Assembly (NCBI GenBank): GCA_016872055.1
Contig: VHBH01000002.1
Location: 124,001-188,000 of the forward strand
DNA: 64,000 bases
Reading direction: 5' to 3'
From: Nitrososphaerota archaeon
Lineage (GTDB): Archaea > Thermoproteota > Nitrososphaeria > Nitrososphaerales > Nitrosopumilaceae
The notes beneath the pieces were generated by a model. It searched no databases. It was given only the letters and a program-made list of their open reading frames with translations, and was not told the DNA's origin. Within the stretch, counting starts at the first letter, position 1; each line of letters opens with the position of its first letter. Both the position numbers and the translations under genes were made by a program. Shown here in pieces: positions 2,688-9,478 of the stretch.

Positions 2688-3842
2688 GTGGAAAAGGTCT
2701 GCGTTCTTGGCGCTGGTAGCACCAAATATGGAAAATTAGAAGACAGCATTACGGATATCACTATTCAGGCATCAGTTGGCGCAATCGAAAGTGCAGGAAT
2801 CGATCCAAAAGAGATCCAAGCAGGCTACATCTCTAATGTCTTTGGCATTGCAGACAAGCAGGTACACTTAGGCCCAGTAATAATGAGCGACCTTGGAATT
2901 CCAGAAAAACCATCATTATCAATTGAATCTGCGTGCGGTTCCGGCTCGGTATCATTTAGAGAGGCATTTGCTAATGTTGCAGCTGGATTTTACGATGCGG
3001 TTTTGGTTGCGGGAACAGAAAAGGTGACCCATACAGGTACTGAGTGGACTACAACTTACTTTTCATATTGCTCTGATTTCTTTTATGAGGGCGGTGCGGG
3101 TGCATCATTTCCTGGATTGTTTGCGTCAATGGCACGTGCATATTTGACTGAGTTCAAGGCAACAGAAGAAGACCTTGCTCGTGTCGCAGTAAAAAACCAT
3201 GAGAACGGCCTTCTAAACCCAAAAGCACACTTGCGAAAGAAAATTACAATTGATGATGTACTGAATTCAGCAGTGGTGGCAAGCCCACTAAAACTATACG
3301 ACTGCTGTCCGTTCTCTGACGGTGCAAGCGCAGTCATACTTTGTAGCGAAAAATTCGCAAAAGAACACTCTAAGGATTATGTTAATGTAATTGGATCGGG
3401 AAGGGGTGGATCACCTGCAACCCTCCAAGGAAGAGATCACATGACTACCATACCAAGCACAAAACTGGCTGCCCAAGCAGCATACAAGATGGCAGGAATC
3501 ACACCAAGAGACATTGATTTTGCCGAAGTGCATGACTGCTTTACAATTGCAGAAATTGTGGACACTGAGGACTTGGGATTTTTTGAGAAAGGCCATGGCG
3601 TTCAGGCAGTAAGAGAGGGCAGAACCGCCAAGAACGGTGACATTGCTATCAATCCATCAGGTGGACTGAAAGCAAAGGGACATCCAATTGGCGCAACAGG
3701 CGTAGGGCAAGTAGTTGAAGTATTTGAGCAATTAACAGGTAAAGCAGGTGAGCGCACCGTTCAGGACGCAAAAATCGGCTTGACCCACAACTTTGGCGCA
3801 ACTGGAGCCAGCTGCGCAGTTCACATTTTCCAAAGCGTGTAA
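2688..3842 (+). CDS. Thiolase-family acyl-CoA acetyltransferase
   Basis: 384 residues of the archaeal thiolase (SCP2-like) family. The nucleophilic cysteine is C83 in the ESACGSGS context; the family glycine/histidine motif KGHPIGATG lies near residue 330. Thiolases make or cleave acetoacetyl-CoA. In archaea the enzyme feeds mevalonate synthesis with HMG-CoA synthase, and in ammonia-oxidizing archaea a thiolase also splits acetoacetyl-CoA at the end of the 3-hydroxypropionate/4-hydroxybutyrate cycle; sequence alone does not decide. A DUF35 gene follows 12 bp later, as is usual for archaeal thiolases, which use that protein as a channelling subunit. The GTG start is supported by the TATA-like box upstream. 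Confidence 0.9.
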   Translation: MEKVCVLGAGSTKYGKLEDSITDITIQASVGAIESAGIDPKEIQAGYISNVFGIADKQVHLGPVIMSDLGIPEKPSLSIESACGSGSVSFREAFANVAAGFYDAVLVAGTEKVTHTGTEWTTTYFSYCSDFFYEGGAGASFPGLFASMARAYLTEFKATEEDLARVAVKNHENGLLNPKAHLRKKITIDDVLNSAVVASPLKLYDCCPFSDGASAVILCSEKFAKEHSKDYVNVIGSGRGGSPATLQGRDHMTTIPSTKLAAQAAYKMAGITPRDIDFAEVHDCFTIAEIVDTEDLGFFEKGHGVQAVREGRTAKNGDIAINPSGGLKAKGHPIGATGVGQVVEVFEQLTGKAGERTVQDAKIGLTHNFGATGASCAVHIFQSV

Positions 3843-3854
3843 TCCACCTTGACA

Positions 3855-4214
3855 ATGAAGCAAGAATTCATAGATGTTGTCAAGTCAGGTAGGGTTCTAA
3901 CCAAAAAATGCGCAAAATGCAGTCATTTGCACCTAGCAACTGTGTATTTCTGCCAAAACTGCGGCGCAAAGGGCTTTGAGAATAAAATCCTAAATGGCAC
4001 AGGCGTGGTTGCCACGTATACAATAATCACGGTTCCTCCGGCAGGCTTTGAAAAATATACCCCATATGCCTGGGTTGTAATGAAAATAGACGGTTATGAT
4101 ATTCGAATTTCCGGCTTTTTGGGTGGAATTGCTTCCCCTGCACAACTCCCAGTTGGCGCTAAGATCAAAATATCGGGCTATGATGATCGAGGAATTCTTC
4201 TAGAAAAACAGTAA
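3855..4214 (+). CDS. DUF35 OB-fold/zinc-ribbon partner of thiolase
   Basis: About 119 residues. An N-terminal rubredoxin-like zinc ribbon (CAKCSHLHLA then CQNCGAKGF) precedes an OB-fold domain, the standard DUF35 architecture. In archaea this protein bridges thiolase and HMG-CoA synthase and moves the acyl intermediate between them. It lies directly downstream of the thiolase gene. An in-frame TTG at 3849 would add two residues; the ATG at 3855 is preferred. Confidence 0.85.
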   Translation: MKQEFIDVVKSGRVLTKKCAKCSHLHLATVYFCQNCGAKGFENKILNGTGVVATYTIITVPPAGFEKYTPYAWVVMKIDGYDIRISGFLGGIASPAQLPVGAKIKISGYDDRGILLEKQ

Positions 4215-4509: not shown

Positions 4510-6609
4510 ATGAGTATTGAGGATGCTGGGATGATCGATCCCAAAAAGTCTGGGGGAATTTTACAATCTACATCAAAACGCGTAAGAATGATCTTCTCTG
4601 TCATGGCAAGTCCAAATAGAATTGACATACTGAGAATCCTAAACTCCAAGGGACCACTAACATATTCTGAACTAAAGTCACTTGCTGGATTCAAATCCAA
4701 AAAGGAAAGTGGAAAATTTGCATATCACTTAAGAAAGTTACTGAGGCAGTCGCTTGTTGCGCTAAACAAATCCGAGAGGCGCTACACCATCACAAATCTC
4801 GGCAAGCTAGTACTAAGTCTGGCTCGCCAAATAGAAGAGCGCTCTATAATAGAGTCTGGCAAAATGTATGTGCGAACCTCGCATGAATCAATTGAGGAGT
4901 TCAACTCTCACAAAATCATCCAGTCTCTAGTCCGAGAAGGAAGTCTTCCACTAGAATTAGCGCAAAAAATCACCGAAGAAGTGGAAAATCGCATTTACAA
5001 ATACCAAACAACCTACCTTACAGGTTCACTCATTCGTGAAATGGTAAATTCTGTGCTGCTAGAACACGGACATGAGGAATACCGCAACAAGCTAACACGC
5101 TTGGGCATGCCTGTCTTTGACATTCAAGAAATACTCACAAATGTCGACAATATCGACAATGGTGCACAAGGCCTATTCTTCAAGTCTGGCCAAACAATCT
5201 TTGCAGAAAATCTCCTACTAAACGCATTACCTAAGGATGTGGCAGACTCACATCTCTCAGGCGACATTCACATTTCAAATCCGGGAATCTGGTCGTTGCT
5301 TCCTGATACGATCTTCTTTAATCTTAAAGAACTCATCGAAGATGGAATTGATCTCAAGGGCAAATTCCTAGGAGTCAGCAGAATTGCAACAGTCAAGACA
5401 CTGGACAATCTAATGTCATCTCTGTCAATGATCATATCTTTGGCCTCAAAGGAAGCATCAAAGGAAATAATTCTGGACGGCCTAGTTCAACTTTGCGCAA
5501 AACATGCAAAGAATATGACAGAACTAGAAGAAAAACTGGTCGACTCACTGGTCACCTCCTCTACTGCATCTAAGTATACAAAAGAGCCGACACTGGTATC
5601 GTTTAGAATTCAGTTGGGTGCAGAGCCCAAGGTTGTAGCAGCAATACTAAATGCATACAAGAACTATGTCAAGATGACTCCAGTACCTCAAGTTGGACTA
5701 GTCGTTGATTATTCTGCAGGTAAAGTATCTGATGTTTCGCAAACCGTTTCTGAAATCATATCTATTGGTGGCAAAGTTCTCTTCTCAAAAGACGAGACAT
5801 CATATAGCGGAATTACAAGAATCAAGGCAAAGAACAGTACTTCATCAATAAACCTGCAATCACTGACAATAAACCTACCAAGACTTGCGTTTGAATCAAA
5901 CAAGGATGAGACTTACTTTAGAGCAAGACTTGCATTGTTAATGAAGCCGCCACTTGCTGCAATGTCTTTACGCAAAAAAGACATATCAGATCTTACCAGA
6001 CGTGGACTAAATCCAGTCCTTGCAGCAAACACGCAATACATGCAGAGAAGCTCAGTCGGACTGGTTGTAAATCTGGTAGGCCTAAAGGAGGCAGTCTTTA
6101 ACATATTGGGCTATTCAGACGACAAGGAAGGCCATGAAATACTCTACAAAGTCCTCCAGACGGCAGTCGATGTAGCCGAGAAAAAGGGTAAGGAAATGGG
6201 TGACTCTGTCATAGTCACCATGACAGAATCTGACGGCACGCCTAGATTTAGCTCACTGGACGGAGAAAAATACGGCAAAATGTCAGTTCTCAAATCACTA
6301 GAAAGCGGCGGCTACTCACAAGGAGTCGTCATTTTAGCCTCGGAATTAGACTCACTGAGTGCAAAATCCGAGAAAATCTCAGACGCCAACAAGAAAGCCA
6401 AGATCCTAAACGGAGGCTTGCTGGTACAGTTACGATTTGAGCGTGATTCCAAGGCGGAAGACATCAAAAAAGCAATAGAAAAGACAAGCGATCTAATCGG
6501 CTCCTTTAGACCAAGCAAGGACGTTCCCATATGCGGCAATTGCGGCTTCAAGGACGAAAAGCTCTTTGAGAAATGTCCATCCTGCAAATCCCCGTATATC
6601 ATCAGCTAA
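4510..6609 (+). CDS. Winged-helix / ATP-cone / NrdD-like fusion protein lacking the glycyl-radical site
   Basis: 699 residues in four parts. Residues 25-110 form an ArsR-like winged helix (SPNRIDILRILNSKGPLTYSE). Residues 118-205 resemble an ATP-cone (dATP/ATP-sensing domain of ribonucleotide reductases). Residues 215-640 resemble class III reductase NrdD; GDIHISNPGIW matches the NrdD GDIHIHD region. The end is a zinc knuckle (CGNCGFKDEKLF then CPSCKSP). The chain stops right after the zinc knuckle, so the RVxGY glycyl-radical motif of active NrdD is missing. It lies directly upstream of the class II reductase gene. I infer a nucleotide-sensing transcriptional regulator of dNTP synthesis built from a dead NrdD, not an active reductase. 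Confidence 0.75.
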   Translation: MSIEDAGMIDPKKSGGILQSTSKRVRMIFSVMASPNRIDILRILNSKGPLTYSELKSLAGFKSKKESGKFAYHLRKLLRQSLVALNKSERRYTITNLGKLVLSLARQIEERSIIESGKMYVRTSHESIEEFNSHKIIQSLVREGSLPLELAQKITEEVENRIYKYQTTYLTGSLIREMVNSVLLEHGHEEYRNKLTRLGMPVFDIQEILTNVDNIDNGAQGLFFKSGQTIFAENLLLNALPKDVADSHLSGDIHISNPGIWSLLPDTIFFNLKELIEDGIDLKGKFLGVSRIATVKTLDNLMSSLSMIISLASKEASKEIILDGLVQLCAKHAKNMTELEEKLVDSLVTSSTASKYTKEPTLVSFRIQLGAEPKVVAAILNAYKNYVKMTPVPQVGLVVDYSAGKVSDVSQTVSEIISIGGKVLFSKDETSYSGITRIKAKNSTSSINLQSLTINLPRLAFESNKDETYFRARLALLMKPPLAAMSLRKKDISDLTRRGLNPVLAANTQYMQRSSVGLVVNLVGLKEAVFNILGYSDDKEGHEILYKVLQTAVDVAEKKGKEMGDSVIVTMTESDGTPRFSSLDGEKYGKMSVLKSLESGGYSQGVVILASELDSLSAKSEKISDANKKAKILNGGLLVQLRFERDSKAEDIKKAIEKTSDLIGSFRPSKDVPICGNCGFKDEKLFEKCPSCKSPYIIS

Positions 6610-6659: not shown

Positions 6660-6809
6660 TTGGCGGCTAGATCACTTTCAAAAATAACGCAAATCGTTTT
6701 TGGAACCACGAATGACCAAAACGAAAATTCTTGGAATGGTGTAAAAGTTGTTGAGCTAAAATCTGAAACTTTTCGGCGTCAGGGTTATATCCGAACCGAT
6801 TATACCTAG
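6660..6809 (+). CDS. Possible 49-residue ORF coupled to nrdJ
   Basis: A TTG-initiated frame of 49 residues starting MAARSLSKITQI and ending GYIRTDYT. Its TAG stop shares one base with a GTG at 6809 that is in frame with nrdJ, and it fills most of the space between the NrdD-like gene and nrdJ. The composition looks protein-like, with no runs of low complexity. It could be a small conserved protein, a leader peptide, or chance. There is no recognisable domain. Confidence 0.4.
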   Translation: MAARSLSKITQIVFGTTNDQNENSWNGVKVVELKSETFRRQGYIRTDYT

Positions 6810-6823
6810 TGAGGGGAGACAAT

Positions 6824-9478
6824 ATGACAACAGATTTTTCTCAAATTGAAAGTTCGATCGTCGACGTAAAGAAGCGCGACGGACGAATTACAGCATTTAA
6901 TAAAGATAAGATCACAAATGCGATCTACAAGGCTCTGGTGGCAAACGGCCAGCCAGACCGCAAAATAGCTGACGAGCTGACCAGCGGAGTTTTGGACAAG
7001 CTAATCCACCAGGGATTTTCAACATCCAGCCCGCCATCCGTCGAGGATGTTCAGGACATGGTCGAGTCGACACTAATCGAAATGGGCTATGGCGAGATTG
7101 CCAAAGCCTACATTCTGTACCGACACGAACGTCGCAAGGTACGAGAGGATAAGATGAAGGTTCTCAATACTAAGAACCTTGACTCTGTAGCAAAATCGTT
7201 TGACCTAAACTGCCTTCGAGTCTTGGCATCAAGATATCTATTGCGAAATAACAAAAACGAAATCATCGAATCGCCAAGCCAAATGTTTGAGCGAGTTGCA
7301 ATCCTAGTTGGCATCGGCGACATTCTCTATGACTCGGAATTGTACGTCAGAGAGGGAGGGGCCCACCAAGATGCCGAGGAAGCAAGAAAATACTTGGCAA
7401 AACTGGATGACTTTGATTACAAATTCAAGGTAGGTCAATACTATCTGAACAAATATCATTTCCGCGGACTGATCAACCAGTACGTGTACCTGGCAAAGCG
7501 TGGCCAAATGAAAAAGAGCTTCAAAGAAGTGCTGACATTGCTTGCAGCAAAAAAGTTTGAGCAATACGCAGATAGAATAACAGAATATTTCACCCTCATG
7601 ACAGAGCAGGACTTTTTGCCAAACTCACCAACAATGATGAATGCAGGCGCAAGACTAGGACAACTGTCTGCTTGCTTTGTCTTAGGCATGCCTGACGACA
7701 TGGGAGATATCATGAAGTCGACATCTGATGCCGCACTAATATTCAAGTCCGGCGGAGGAGTCGGAATCAACTATTCCGACCTACGACACGAAGGAGACAT
7801 TGTTGCATCCACATCTGGCGTTGCATCAGGACCAGTCTCTTTCATGAATATTATCAACACCGTCACCGAAGTAGTAAAGCAAGGCGGCAAGCGACGCGGC
7901 GCAAACATGGGCATCCTAGAAGCATGGCATCCAGATATTGAAAAATTCATCACAAACAAGACCAAGGATGGAATCTTGGAGAACTTTAATGTCTCAGTTG
8001 GAGTCTGGGAAGACTTTTGGTCTGCACTAGTAGATAGTGCTGATGGCAAATTCACACTGCGAAGTCCAAGGGACAGAGCACCAGTAAAAGAAATCAATGC
8101 ACACCAGCTAATCGACCTGATTGCTCTTTCTGCATGGAAGAGCGCAGAGCCTGGCCTGATATTCTTTGATAATATCAACAAGTACAATGTCTTTGCAAAG
8201 GCAAGGGGCGGACCCCTGAGGGCGACAAACCCGTGCGGCGAGCAGTCACTATACCCATACGAGTCCTGCAACTTGGGATCAATCAACCTCGCAAATCTTG
8301 TAAAAAGAAAGGCGGACGGCCAATACGAGTTTGACTGGCAAAGATATGAGGAAACCATACACAAAACAACACGATTCCTAGACAATGTAATTGATATGAA
8401 TAACTATCCAGTTCCAGAAATAGACCAGGCATCAAAGGAGTCCAGAAGAATTGGTCTAGGTGTCATGGGTGTGGCAGATCTCCTCTACAAGCTAAGAATT
8501 CCATACAATTCCAAAGAAGGATACGAATTCCAGTACAAGCTAGCTGAAGCACTGACATATTATTCCATGGAGGAAAGTGTTGCTCTGGCAAGATCCCGTG
8601 GAGAATTCGATCTGTGTTCAAAGACTGAATATCCAGAAGGCAAGATTCCAGTTTCTGGATATTATGAAAAGCCAAAGGGCGAGCATTACTATGACTGGGA
8701 TGCACTAATCGCAAAGATCCAAAAGCACGGAATCCGAAACGTTCTGACCACAACAGTAGCACCAACAGGAACACTATCCATGATTGCAGATTGTTCCAAC
8801 GGAATGGAACCAACATTTGCTCTGGTGTTCGAAAAACGCGTAACGGTGGGACGATTCTTCTACACCAACAAAATATTCGAAAACGTACTGCGCGAAAACG
8901 GCCTGTACTCTGAAGAATTACTGGCAAAAATAGCAGACAACTATGGTTCCGTTCGAGGACTAAAGGAAATCCCAGAATGGATTCAAAACATTTTCGTCAC
9001 TGCAATGGACATTCACTGGTCTGACCACTTGATGGCCCAGGCAGTATGGCAGGAATGGATTGGAAACGCTATAGCAAAAACAATTAACATGCCGAATGAC
9101 GTTTCAGCAGAAGATGTCAAAGCTGCATACTTGTTAGCGCACGAGCTTGGCCTCAAAGGCATTACGGTGTACCGAGACGGCTCGCGACACACCCAAGTAC
9201 TGCACATGACTAGCGAGAATGCAGAAAAGACGTTTGATGTTGTTGCCAGCTCATTCCTAAATGAGTTCATCTCAAAGAACATCAAAAACAATTACATCCG
9301 AACTCAAGTAAACAATGCACTACAGCTCAAAATCCCAGAAGAGCCACTGCTGGAACAAATAACAAAAGAAGAAATATCAGAAGAAATGCTTTGCCCGTCC
9401 TGCAAGAATGCCCTAGTGTTCGTGGAAGGATGCAGCATCTGCATTGAATGCGGATTCTCTGGATGTACGTCTGGATGA
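6824..9478 (+). CDS. nrdJ: Adenosylcobalamin-dependent (class II) ribonucleoside-diphosphate reductase
   Basis: About 884 residues, full length for NrdJ, with no intein. Reduces ribonucleotides to deoxyribonucleotides using adenosylcobalamin, in the cytoplasm. An ATP-cone occupies roughly residues 10-100. Active-site landmarks are the LSACFVLGMPDDM cysteine, NPCGEQ with the CxE motif, ESCNLGSINL, and APTGTLSMIADCSNG. The C-terminal tail carries a cysteine-rich zinc-finger/redox motif (CPSCKNALVF ... CIECGFSGC). The ATG at 6824 is preferred to the GTG at 6809, because GAGGGGAG (6811-6818) forms a Shine-Dalgarno five bases before it. B12 dependence fits the cobalamin operon at 58.5-62.6 kb. Confidence 0.95.
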   Translation: MTTDFSQIESSIVDVKKRDGRITAFNKDKITNAIYKALVANGQPDRKIADELTSGVLDKLIHQGFSTSSPPSVEDVQDMVESTLIEMGYGEIAKAYILYRHERRKVREDKMKVLNTKNLDSVAKSFDLNCLRVLASRYLLRNNKNEIIESPSQMFERVAILVGIGDILYDSELYVREGGAHQDAEEARKYLAKLDDFDYKFKVGQYYLNKYHFRGLINQYVYLAKRGQMKKSFKEVLTLLAAKKFEQYADRITEYFTLMTEQDFLPNSPTMMNAGARLGQLSACFVLGMPDDMGDIMKSTSDAALIFKSGGGVGINYSDLRHEGDIVASTSGVASGPVSFMNIINTVTEVVKQGGKRRGANMGILEAWHPDIEKFITNKTKDGILENFNVSVGVWEDFWSALVDSADGKFTLRSPRDRAPVKEINAHQLIDLIALSAWKSAEPGLIFFDNINKYNVFAKARGGPLRATNPCGEQSLYPYESCNLGSINLANLVKRKADGQYEFDWQRYEETIHKTTRFLDNVIDMNNYPVPEIDQASKESRRIGLGVMGVADLLYKLRIPYNSKEGYEFQYKLAEALTYYSMEESVALARSRGEFDLCSKTEYPEGKIPVSGYYEKPKGEHYYDWDALIAKIQKHGIRNVLTTTVAPTGTLSMIADCSNGMEPTFALVFEKRVTVGRFFYTNKIFENVLRENGLYSEELLAKIADNYGSVRGLKEIPEWIQNIFVTAMDIHWSDHLMAQAVWQEWIGNAIAKTINMPNDVSAEDVKAAYLLAHELGLKGITVYRDGSRHTQVLHMTSENAEKTFDVVASSFLNEFISKNIKNNYIRTQVNNALQLKIPEEPLLEQITKEEISEEMLCPSCKNALVFVEGCSICIECGFSGCTSG

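Follow-up and report, generated by a model that had tools for sequence, protein, structure and literature searches.

How archaea tune their ribonucleotide reductase genes to nucleotide supply is a largely open question, because NrdR, the bacterial repressor of nrd genes, is rare in archaea (PMC9110341). NrdR combines a Zn-ribbon with an ATP-cone that controls both oligomerization and DNA binding (PMC9110341). The locus analyzed here raises the question of whether a protein that carries an ATP-cone, but is not NrdR, could regulate reductase genes in a comparable way. The gene encoding it lies at 4510..6609 (+ strand) of the window, by which we mean the whole 64,000-nt stretch of DNA under analysis (Nitrososphaerota archaeon, Nitrosopumilaceae; GCA_016872055.1, VHBH01000002.1, positions 124,001-188,000).

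Domain architecture and genomic context

The complete gene encodes a 699-aa protein composed of a winged HTH, an ATP-cone, a degenerate NrdD core and a zinc knuckle. The ArsR-like winged HTH (aa 28-102; 4591..4815, +) matches the Pfam families DUF7347 (2e-10) and HTH_20 (7e-8), both over cut-off, and is more strongly conserved across the family than any other part. It is followed by the ATP-cone (aa 119-191; 4864..5082, +), which matches PF03477 over cut-off (1.4e-8) and bears a family signature, VRTSxxxxEEF. The NrdD core comprises two segments on the same strand: a weaker NRDD match at about aa 214-315 (profile 4-101; 5149..5454, +), in which the NxN flap, the second His of HxH and the partner Cys are replaced, and a C-terminal barrel segment (5821..6591, +) that matches NRDD over cut-off at aa 438-694 (5e-24; profile 268-529 of 562) and keeps NxPR and other structural motifs. 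NCBIfam NrdD models match the protein far under their equivalog cut-offs (75 bits vs 326). The zinc knuckle CGNC...CPSC, recognized by sequence and alignment (aa 675-692; 6532..6585, +), closes the protein, which stops 7 residues past the fourth knuckle Cys and lacks the glycyl-radical loop.

The gene for the B12-dependent class II reductase, nrdJ (6824..9478, +; Pfam and NCBIfam matches), which has an ATP-cone of its own, starts 214 bp downstream on the same strand. It is the only class I/II reductase core found in the window's genome, where the sole NRDD matches are those of the 4510-6609 gene. Three claims of the initial annotation are upheld by these results: that the C terminus ends after the zinc knuckle without a glycyl-radical motif, that an ArsR-like HTH is fused before an ATP-cone, and that the gene sits directly upstream of nrdJ, in a linkage that proved to be conserved. 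Elsewhere in the window (2688-4214), a thiolase-like gene is followed by a gene for a small zinc-ribbon protein, an ordinary pair.

Loss of the catalytic apparatus

The initial annotation had also described the protein as a whole dead reductase serving as a sensor, and had called for its active-site cysteines to be compared with those of NrdD. For this comparison, 30 true archaeal NrdDs were aligned with two sets of family proteins: R1, with 29 sequences from the same class, the window protein among them, and R2, with 19 relatives belonging to other classes. The partner Cys, present in 30/30 NrdDs, occurs in no aligned family member, and Thr267 holds its position in the window protein. The finger-loop CC column, which contains the thiyl-radical Cys, is likewise present in 30/30 NrdDs and is deleted in every aligned family member; in the window protein the deletion falls between the two core segments. 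The other catalytic motifs examined are also lost: the NxN flap is found in all 30 NrdDs and in 0 members of R1 and R2, HxH (30/30) mostly reads HN, HS or NS across R1 and R2, the second His being gone in the window protein, and the radical Gly of the C-terminal loop (30/30) is missing from all of R1 and from all of R2 except one doubtful case, L182. This family member (L182:4549-6828) has a possible Gly at the radical position (TKVYGRNKP), and its catalytic cysteines are missing.

In PcNrdD, the flap, the HxHD motif and the glycyl domain belong to the active enzyme (PMC11226230). An active reductase was rejected on the strength of the five lost catalytic or substrate features. A separate glycyl-radical subunit is argued against by the restriction of the genome's NRDD matches to the 4510-6609 gene and by NrdG remaining under cut-off; a stand-alone peptide is not excluded. 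Among 61 genomes, none contains a match to the activase NrdG over cut-off, with merely weak matches appearing in longer frames.

Structural positions are retained, among them NxPR, two glycines and the zinc cysteines (19/19 R2, 25/29 R1). A Foldseek search with a predicted model returned class III NrdD for 30 of the 30 best PDB matches; the model has low confidence (pLDDT 56, with the HTH and flap regions below 50) and was used for the fold search only. Mean identity of the family to the window protein amounts to 77% in the HTH and 63% in the cone, versus 35-37% in the reductase core. The alignment shows that every NrdD catalytic motif examined has been lost, and our inference from sequence is that the protein is a dead reductase that has kept the NrdD fold. 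The term "dead" is hence sustained, "whole" is only partly so, given that the core has lost the flap, the finger loop and a portion of its middle, and the sensing role remains an inference.

Members of the Nitrosopelagicus type (L066-L069, L086) stop short of the zinc knuckle, at about 665 aa. The knuckle is thus dispensable in this streamlined marine lineage.

Distribution of the family

The fusion is present in 279/300 Nitrososphaeria genomes, which rules out a chance open reading frame at 4510-6609, and in 207/213 of the good ones; the contigs that carry it include those of Nitrosotenuis, Nitrosotalea, Nitrosopumilus and Nitrosopelagicus, among others. The search outside the class was restricted to Thermoproteota and used a profile built from the HTH and cone alone with a threshold of 1e-12, which 142 of the 211 sampled genomes matched. 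Counted from the E-values, 109 of these match at 1e-50 or better, a level that requires both domains, and the weaker matches are probably to the cone only. The fusion therefore occurs in about half of the sampled Thermoproteota outside Nitrososphaeria, a sample that includes no other archaeal phyla, and the family extends far beyond the organism to which the initial annotation referred. A Pfam scan of ten members detected DUF7347, NRDD and the cone in 10/10, the cone weakly in two (E about 0.003-0.006). No match to the family was found in phage records.

Absences within the class take two forms. In four genomes of the order (G169, G170, G221 and G262), neither the regulator nor a class I/II reductase is matched, suggesting a gap in the assembly. 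In G150 and in the genomes of family f17, a reductase is present and the regulator absent; the f17 genomes (G002, G006, G021 and others) carry a class I/II-type reductase and no clear regulator.

Conserved linkage to reductase genes

The regulator gene is followed by a same-strand nrdJ in 89 loci, the two genes being some 80-590 bp apart, in most cases 200-250 bp; three of these loci (L001-L003) come from the window's own genome, leaving 87 distinct places. The arrangement is also found in deeper members of the class, in several of which nrdJ has no cone (L164, L150, L148), while regulator and nrdJ are convergent in L103, L104, L106 and L153. In other classes the regulator lies upstream of the class III gene nrdD in eight loci (L166-L173), in some of which a glutaredoxin-like gene intervenes, and upstream of nrdJ in L183. 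Some deep Nitrososphaeria members, such as L155-L161, are not beside a reductase gene.

Among the loci examined, pyrB (aspartate carbamoyltransferase) adjoins the regulator or the reductase in 22, whether or not a reductase gene is present. Across classes, it faces either the regulator or the regulator-reductase pair in convergent orientation (L147-L149, L163-L167, L172-L174, L176-L177, L179-L181, L184-L185), constituting a conserved nucleotide-metabolism neighborhood. The carbamoyltransferases beside L187, L188, L189 and L192 were rejected as pyrB, being of the ornithine type by motif and, for L188, also by NCBIfam.

Several peculiarities of individual loci were recorded. The nrdJ beside the regulator at L149:4265-7711 contains an intein with a LAGLIDADG domain, and that of L035 shows an interruption near residue 471, as that of L036 may also do. 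An uncharacterized 668-aa protein is encoded directly upstream of a Methanomethylovorans plasmid nrdD (L186:3839-5845); considered as a possible relative, it was discarded for lack of any Pfam family match.

A candidate operator upstream of nrdJ

Footprinting across loci revealed a conserved block in the gap between regulator and nrdJ. In the window, this candidate operator, GTGTAAAAGTTGTTGA (6739..6754, +), lies about 70 bp upstream of nrdJ, at a position conserved in Nitrosopumilaceae; its family form is TGTCAA-N5-TTGA, and its left half is degenerate in the window (TAAA). A TATA-box-like GTTATAT (6784..6790, +), which is conserved among relatives, is inferred to belong to the nrdJ promoter. 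The pattern GTGTNAA-N5-TTGA occurs in 59/89 regulator-nrdJ gaps versus 2 occurrences in 628 kb of flanks; the 59 loci are related and hence do not represent 59 independent cases. By comparison of coordinates, the extended element in the Nitrosopumilaceae genomes sampled lies for the most part next to the end of the regulator and upstream of nrdJ. As a genome-wide regulon finder the short pattern was rejected, since it performs at chance level (4 matches vs 6 for a reversed control).

Outside the loci used for motif finding, all 256 half-sites were ranked in 34 family loci, nearly all of them from beyond Nitrosopumilaceae. TCAA-N5/6-TTGA ranked first among the 256 half-site dyads, occurring in 8 loci versus a mean of 1.1 at equal GC; the 5-6 bp spacer range was picked after earlier matches had been seen. 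In 20 further, more distant loci, mostly not adjoining a reductase, the dyad was found in none. We consider the operator well supported in Nitrosopumilaceae, plausible in their relatives and not established beyond them, an assessment that rests on inference from sequence and on no binding data. Some 150-200 bp ahead of the regulator gene itself, L168 and L169 also show two dyads of TCAA/TTGA type, one of them a 22-bp inverted repeat, TTAGTCAAACTTTCTTGACTAA, and autoregulation is possible there.

Inferred origin from class III NrdD

In a tree of core columns, all 48 regulators fall on one side of a branch that separates them from 18 NrdDs with support of 100/100; R2 does not form one group within it. 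The root of this tree is unknown; that change ran from NrdD toward the regulators is an inference based on the parts that the regulators lack. The family cone signature differs from the VxKRDG of nrdJ cones and most NrdD cones, and the family cone is closer to that of one archaeal NrdD subgroup (L140, L144) than to the usual VxKRDG cone, a likeness suggesting that the HTH was joined onto a cone-bearing NrdD. On this reconstruction, the ancestor of the regulator would be a duplicated, cone-carrying NrdD, ahead of which a winged HTH was fused; the catalytic apparatus of the reductase part would afterwards have disappeared and its fold been preserved.

Discussion

Taken together, the data favor the view that the protein is likely a nucleotide-sensing transcription regulator of reductase genes, working in a manner similar to NrdR without being NrdR; its DNA binding, nucleotide binding, change of oligomer and sign as repressor or activator are all inferred. 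The initial annotation had proposed an independent archaeal counterpart of NrdR, and this proposal is supported by the conservation of HTH and cone, by the linkage to nrdJ and nrdD, and by the lack of any NrdR over cut-off, with binding of DNA and nucleotides still unproven. The NrdR model TIGR00244 had no match over cut-off in 61 class genomes (none at all in G000), and it is not among the NCBIfam matches of the window protein.

In the proposed mechanism, the cone would read the nucleotide pool as ATP versus dATP, a specificity expected by analogy with NrdR, although its ligand may differ, since the nrdJ cone bears another signature. The former reductase core would possibly sense dNTPs. The regulator would then alter its oligomeric state and bind the TCAA/TTGA dyad upstream of its target, which would be nrdJ in the window organism, nrdD or nrdJ in other Thermoproteota, and perhaps the regulator gene too. 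The element precedes the TATA-like box, where activator sites are more usual than repressor sites, and activation is hence as likely as repression.

Several points weigh against the regulator reading. There are no binding data of any kind, the dyad is absent from the 20 distant loci, and the genome contains several matches to the short motif; moreover, some deep Nitrososphaeria members lie away from reductase genes and some genomes of the class, those of f17, possess nrdJ without the regulator.

A bolder reading can be entertained as a possibility: that of a phylum-wide family of factors using a nearly entire dead class III reductase as a two-site sensor, in which the cone would report on total purine state and what was once the specificity site or active site on individual dNTPs, the same factor being kept while the enzyme under control changed from class III to class II. 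Should the sensor have two such sites, reductase transcription would answer to the amount and balance of dNTPs together.

Among alternative explanations, one posits that the dead NrdD acts at the protein level, binding NrdJ or NrdD to control activity or assembly, with the HTH as a module for protein or nucleic-acid contact that exerts no promoter-specific control. Dead enzyme paralogues often regulate the enzyme by contact. In favor of this explanation are the conserved co-localization with the enzyme gene, nrdD included, and the derivation of the core from the NrdD lineage. We nevertheless deem it unlikely: no part of the protein is better conserved than the HTH, recognition helix included; the partner is in some cases a class II and in others a class III enzyme, and these differ in structure; and the nrdJ promoter dyad is conserved by position.

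The protein could instead be a transcription factor mainly for other genes, in pyrimidine synthesis or a wider set, its reductase linkage being an ancestral neighborhood. The 22 loci with pyrB as a neighbor, reductase gene present or not, speak for this, as do members near neither pyrB nor a reductase gene. It too appears improbable, for the extended element lies mainly upstream of nrdJ in the sampled Nitrosopumilaceae genomes, the linkage spans reductase classes, and pyrB, being convergent, has no promoter in common with the regulator in those loci. A reductase that still works and draws on an unusual radical source, which the retained NrdD fold and NxPR motif might suggest, is all but excluded by the deleted radical-Cys loop, the altered partner Cys, NxN flap and HxH, the absent glycyl loop, the lack of NrdG over cut-off and the presence of nrdJ as the genome's working reductase.

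Read as a regulator, the family offers a concrete candidate, open to testing, in a major phylum of archaea to which the ammonia oxidizers belong. It also provides an evolutionary series: working NrdD stands at one end and strongly eroded copies at the other, dead copies that are still nearly complete lie in between, and the regulator persists across partner reductases of differing class. For genome annotation it carries a warning: genes of this family match NrdD models and can be misread as anaerobic reductases in aerobic organisms.

Comparison with known systems

What would be new is an ATP-cone-based reductase regulator with a putative DNA-binding domain other than that of NrdR and a body derived from a reductase; in the literature searched, which left subscription papers and database-only annotation outside its scope, we found no description of a transcription factor derived from a ribonucleotide reductase. 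With NrdR (PMC9110341) the protein shares an ATP-cone joined to a DNA-binding domain, here an inferred one, linkage to the genes of different reductase classes and, outside the 20 distant loci that lack it, a dyad upstream of the presumed target. It differs in having a winged HTH in place of the Zn-ribbon and a large degenerate NrdD core after the cone, and its binding of DNA and nucleotides is inferred. Barrel fold and sequence, cone and zinc knuckle are those of class III NrdD, from which it departs through the HTH in front and the loss of flap, HxH, partner Cys, finger-loop Cys and radical Gly. The winged HTH is shared with archaeal ArsR-like and DUF7347 regulators. These are, as a rule, small or differently fused; the sensor part of the present protein, unlike theirs, is a reductase-derived module. 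ROK repressors are enzyme-derived transcription factors in which an HTH is fused to an enzyme-like sensor domain, and the family described here follows the same principle, with a predicted sensor that derives from a reductase.
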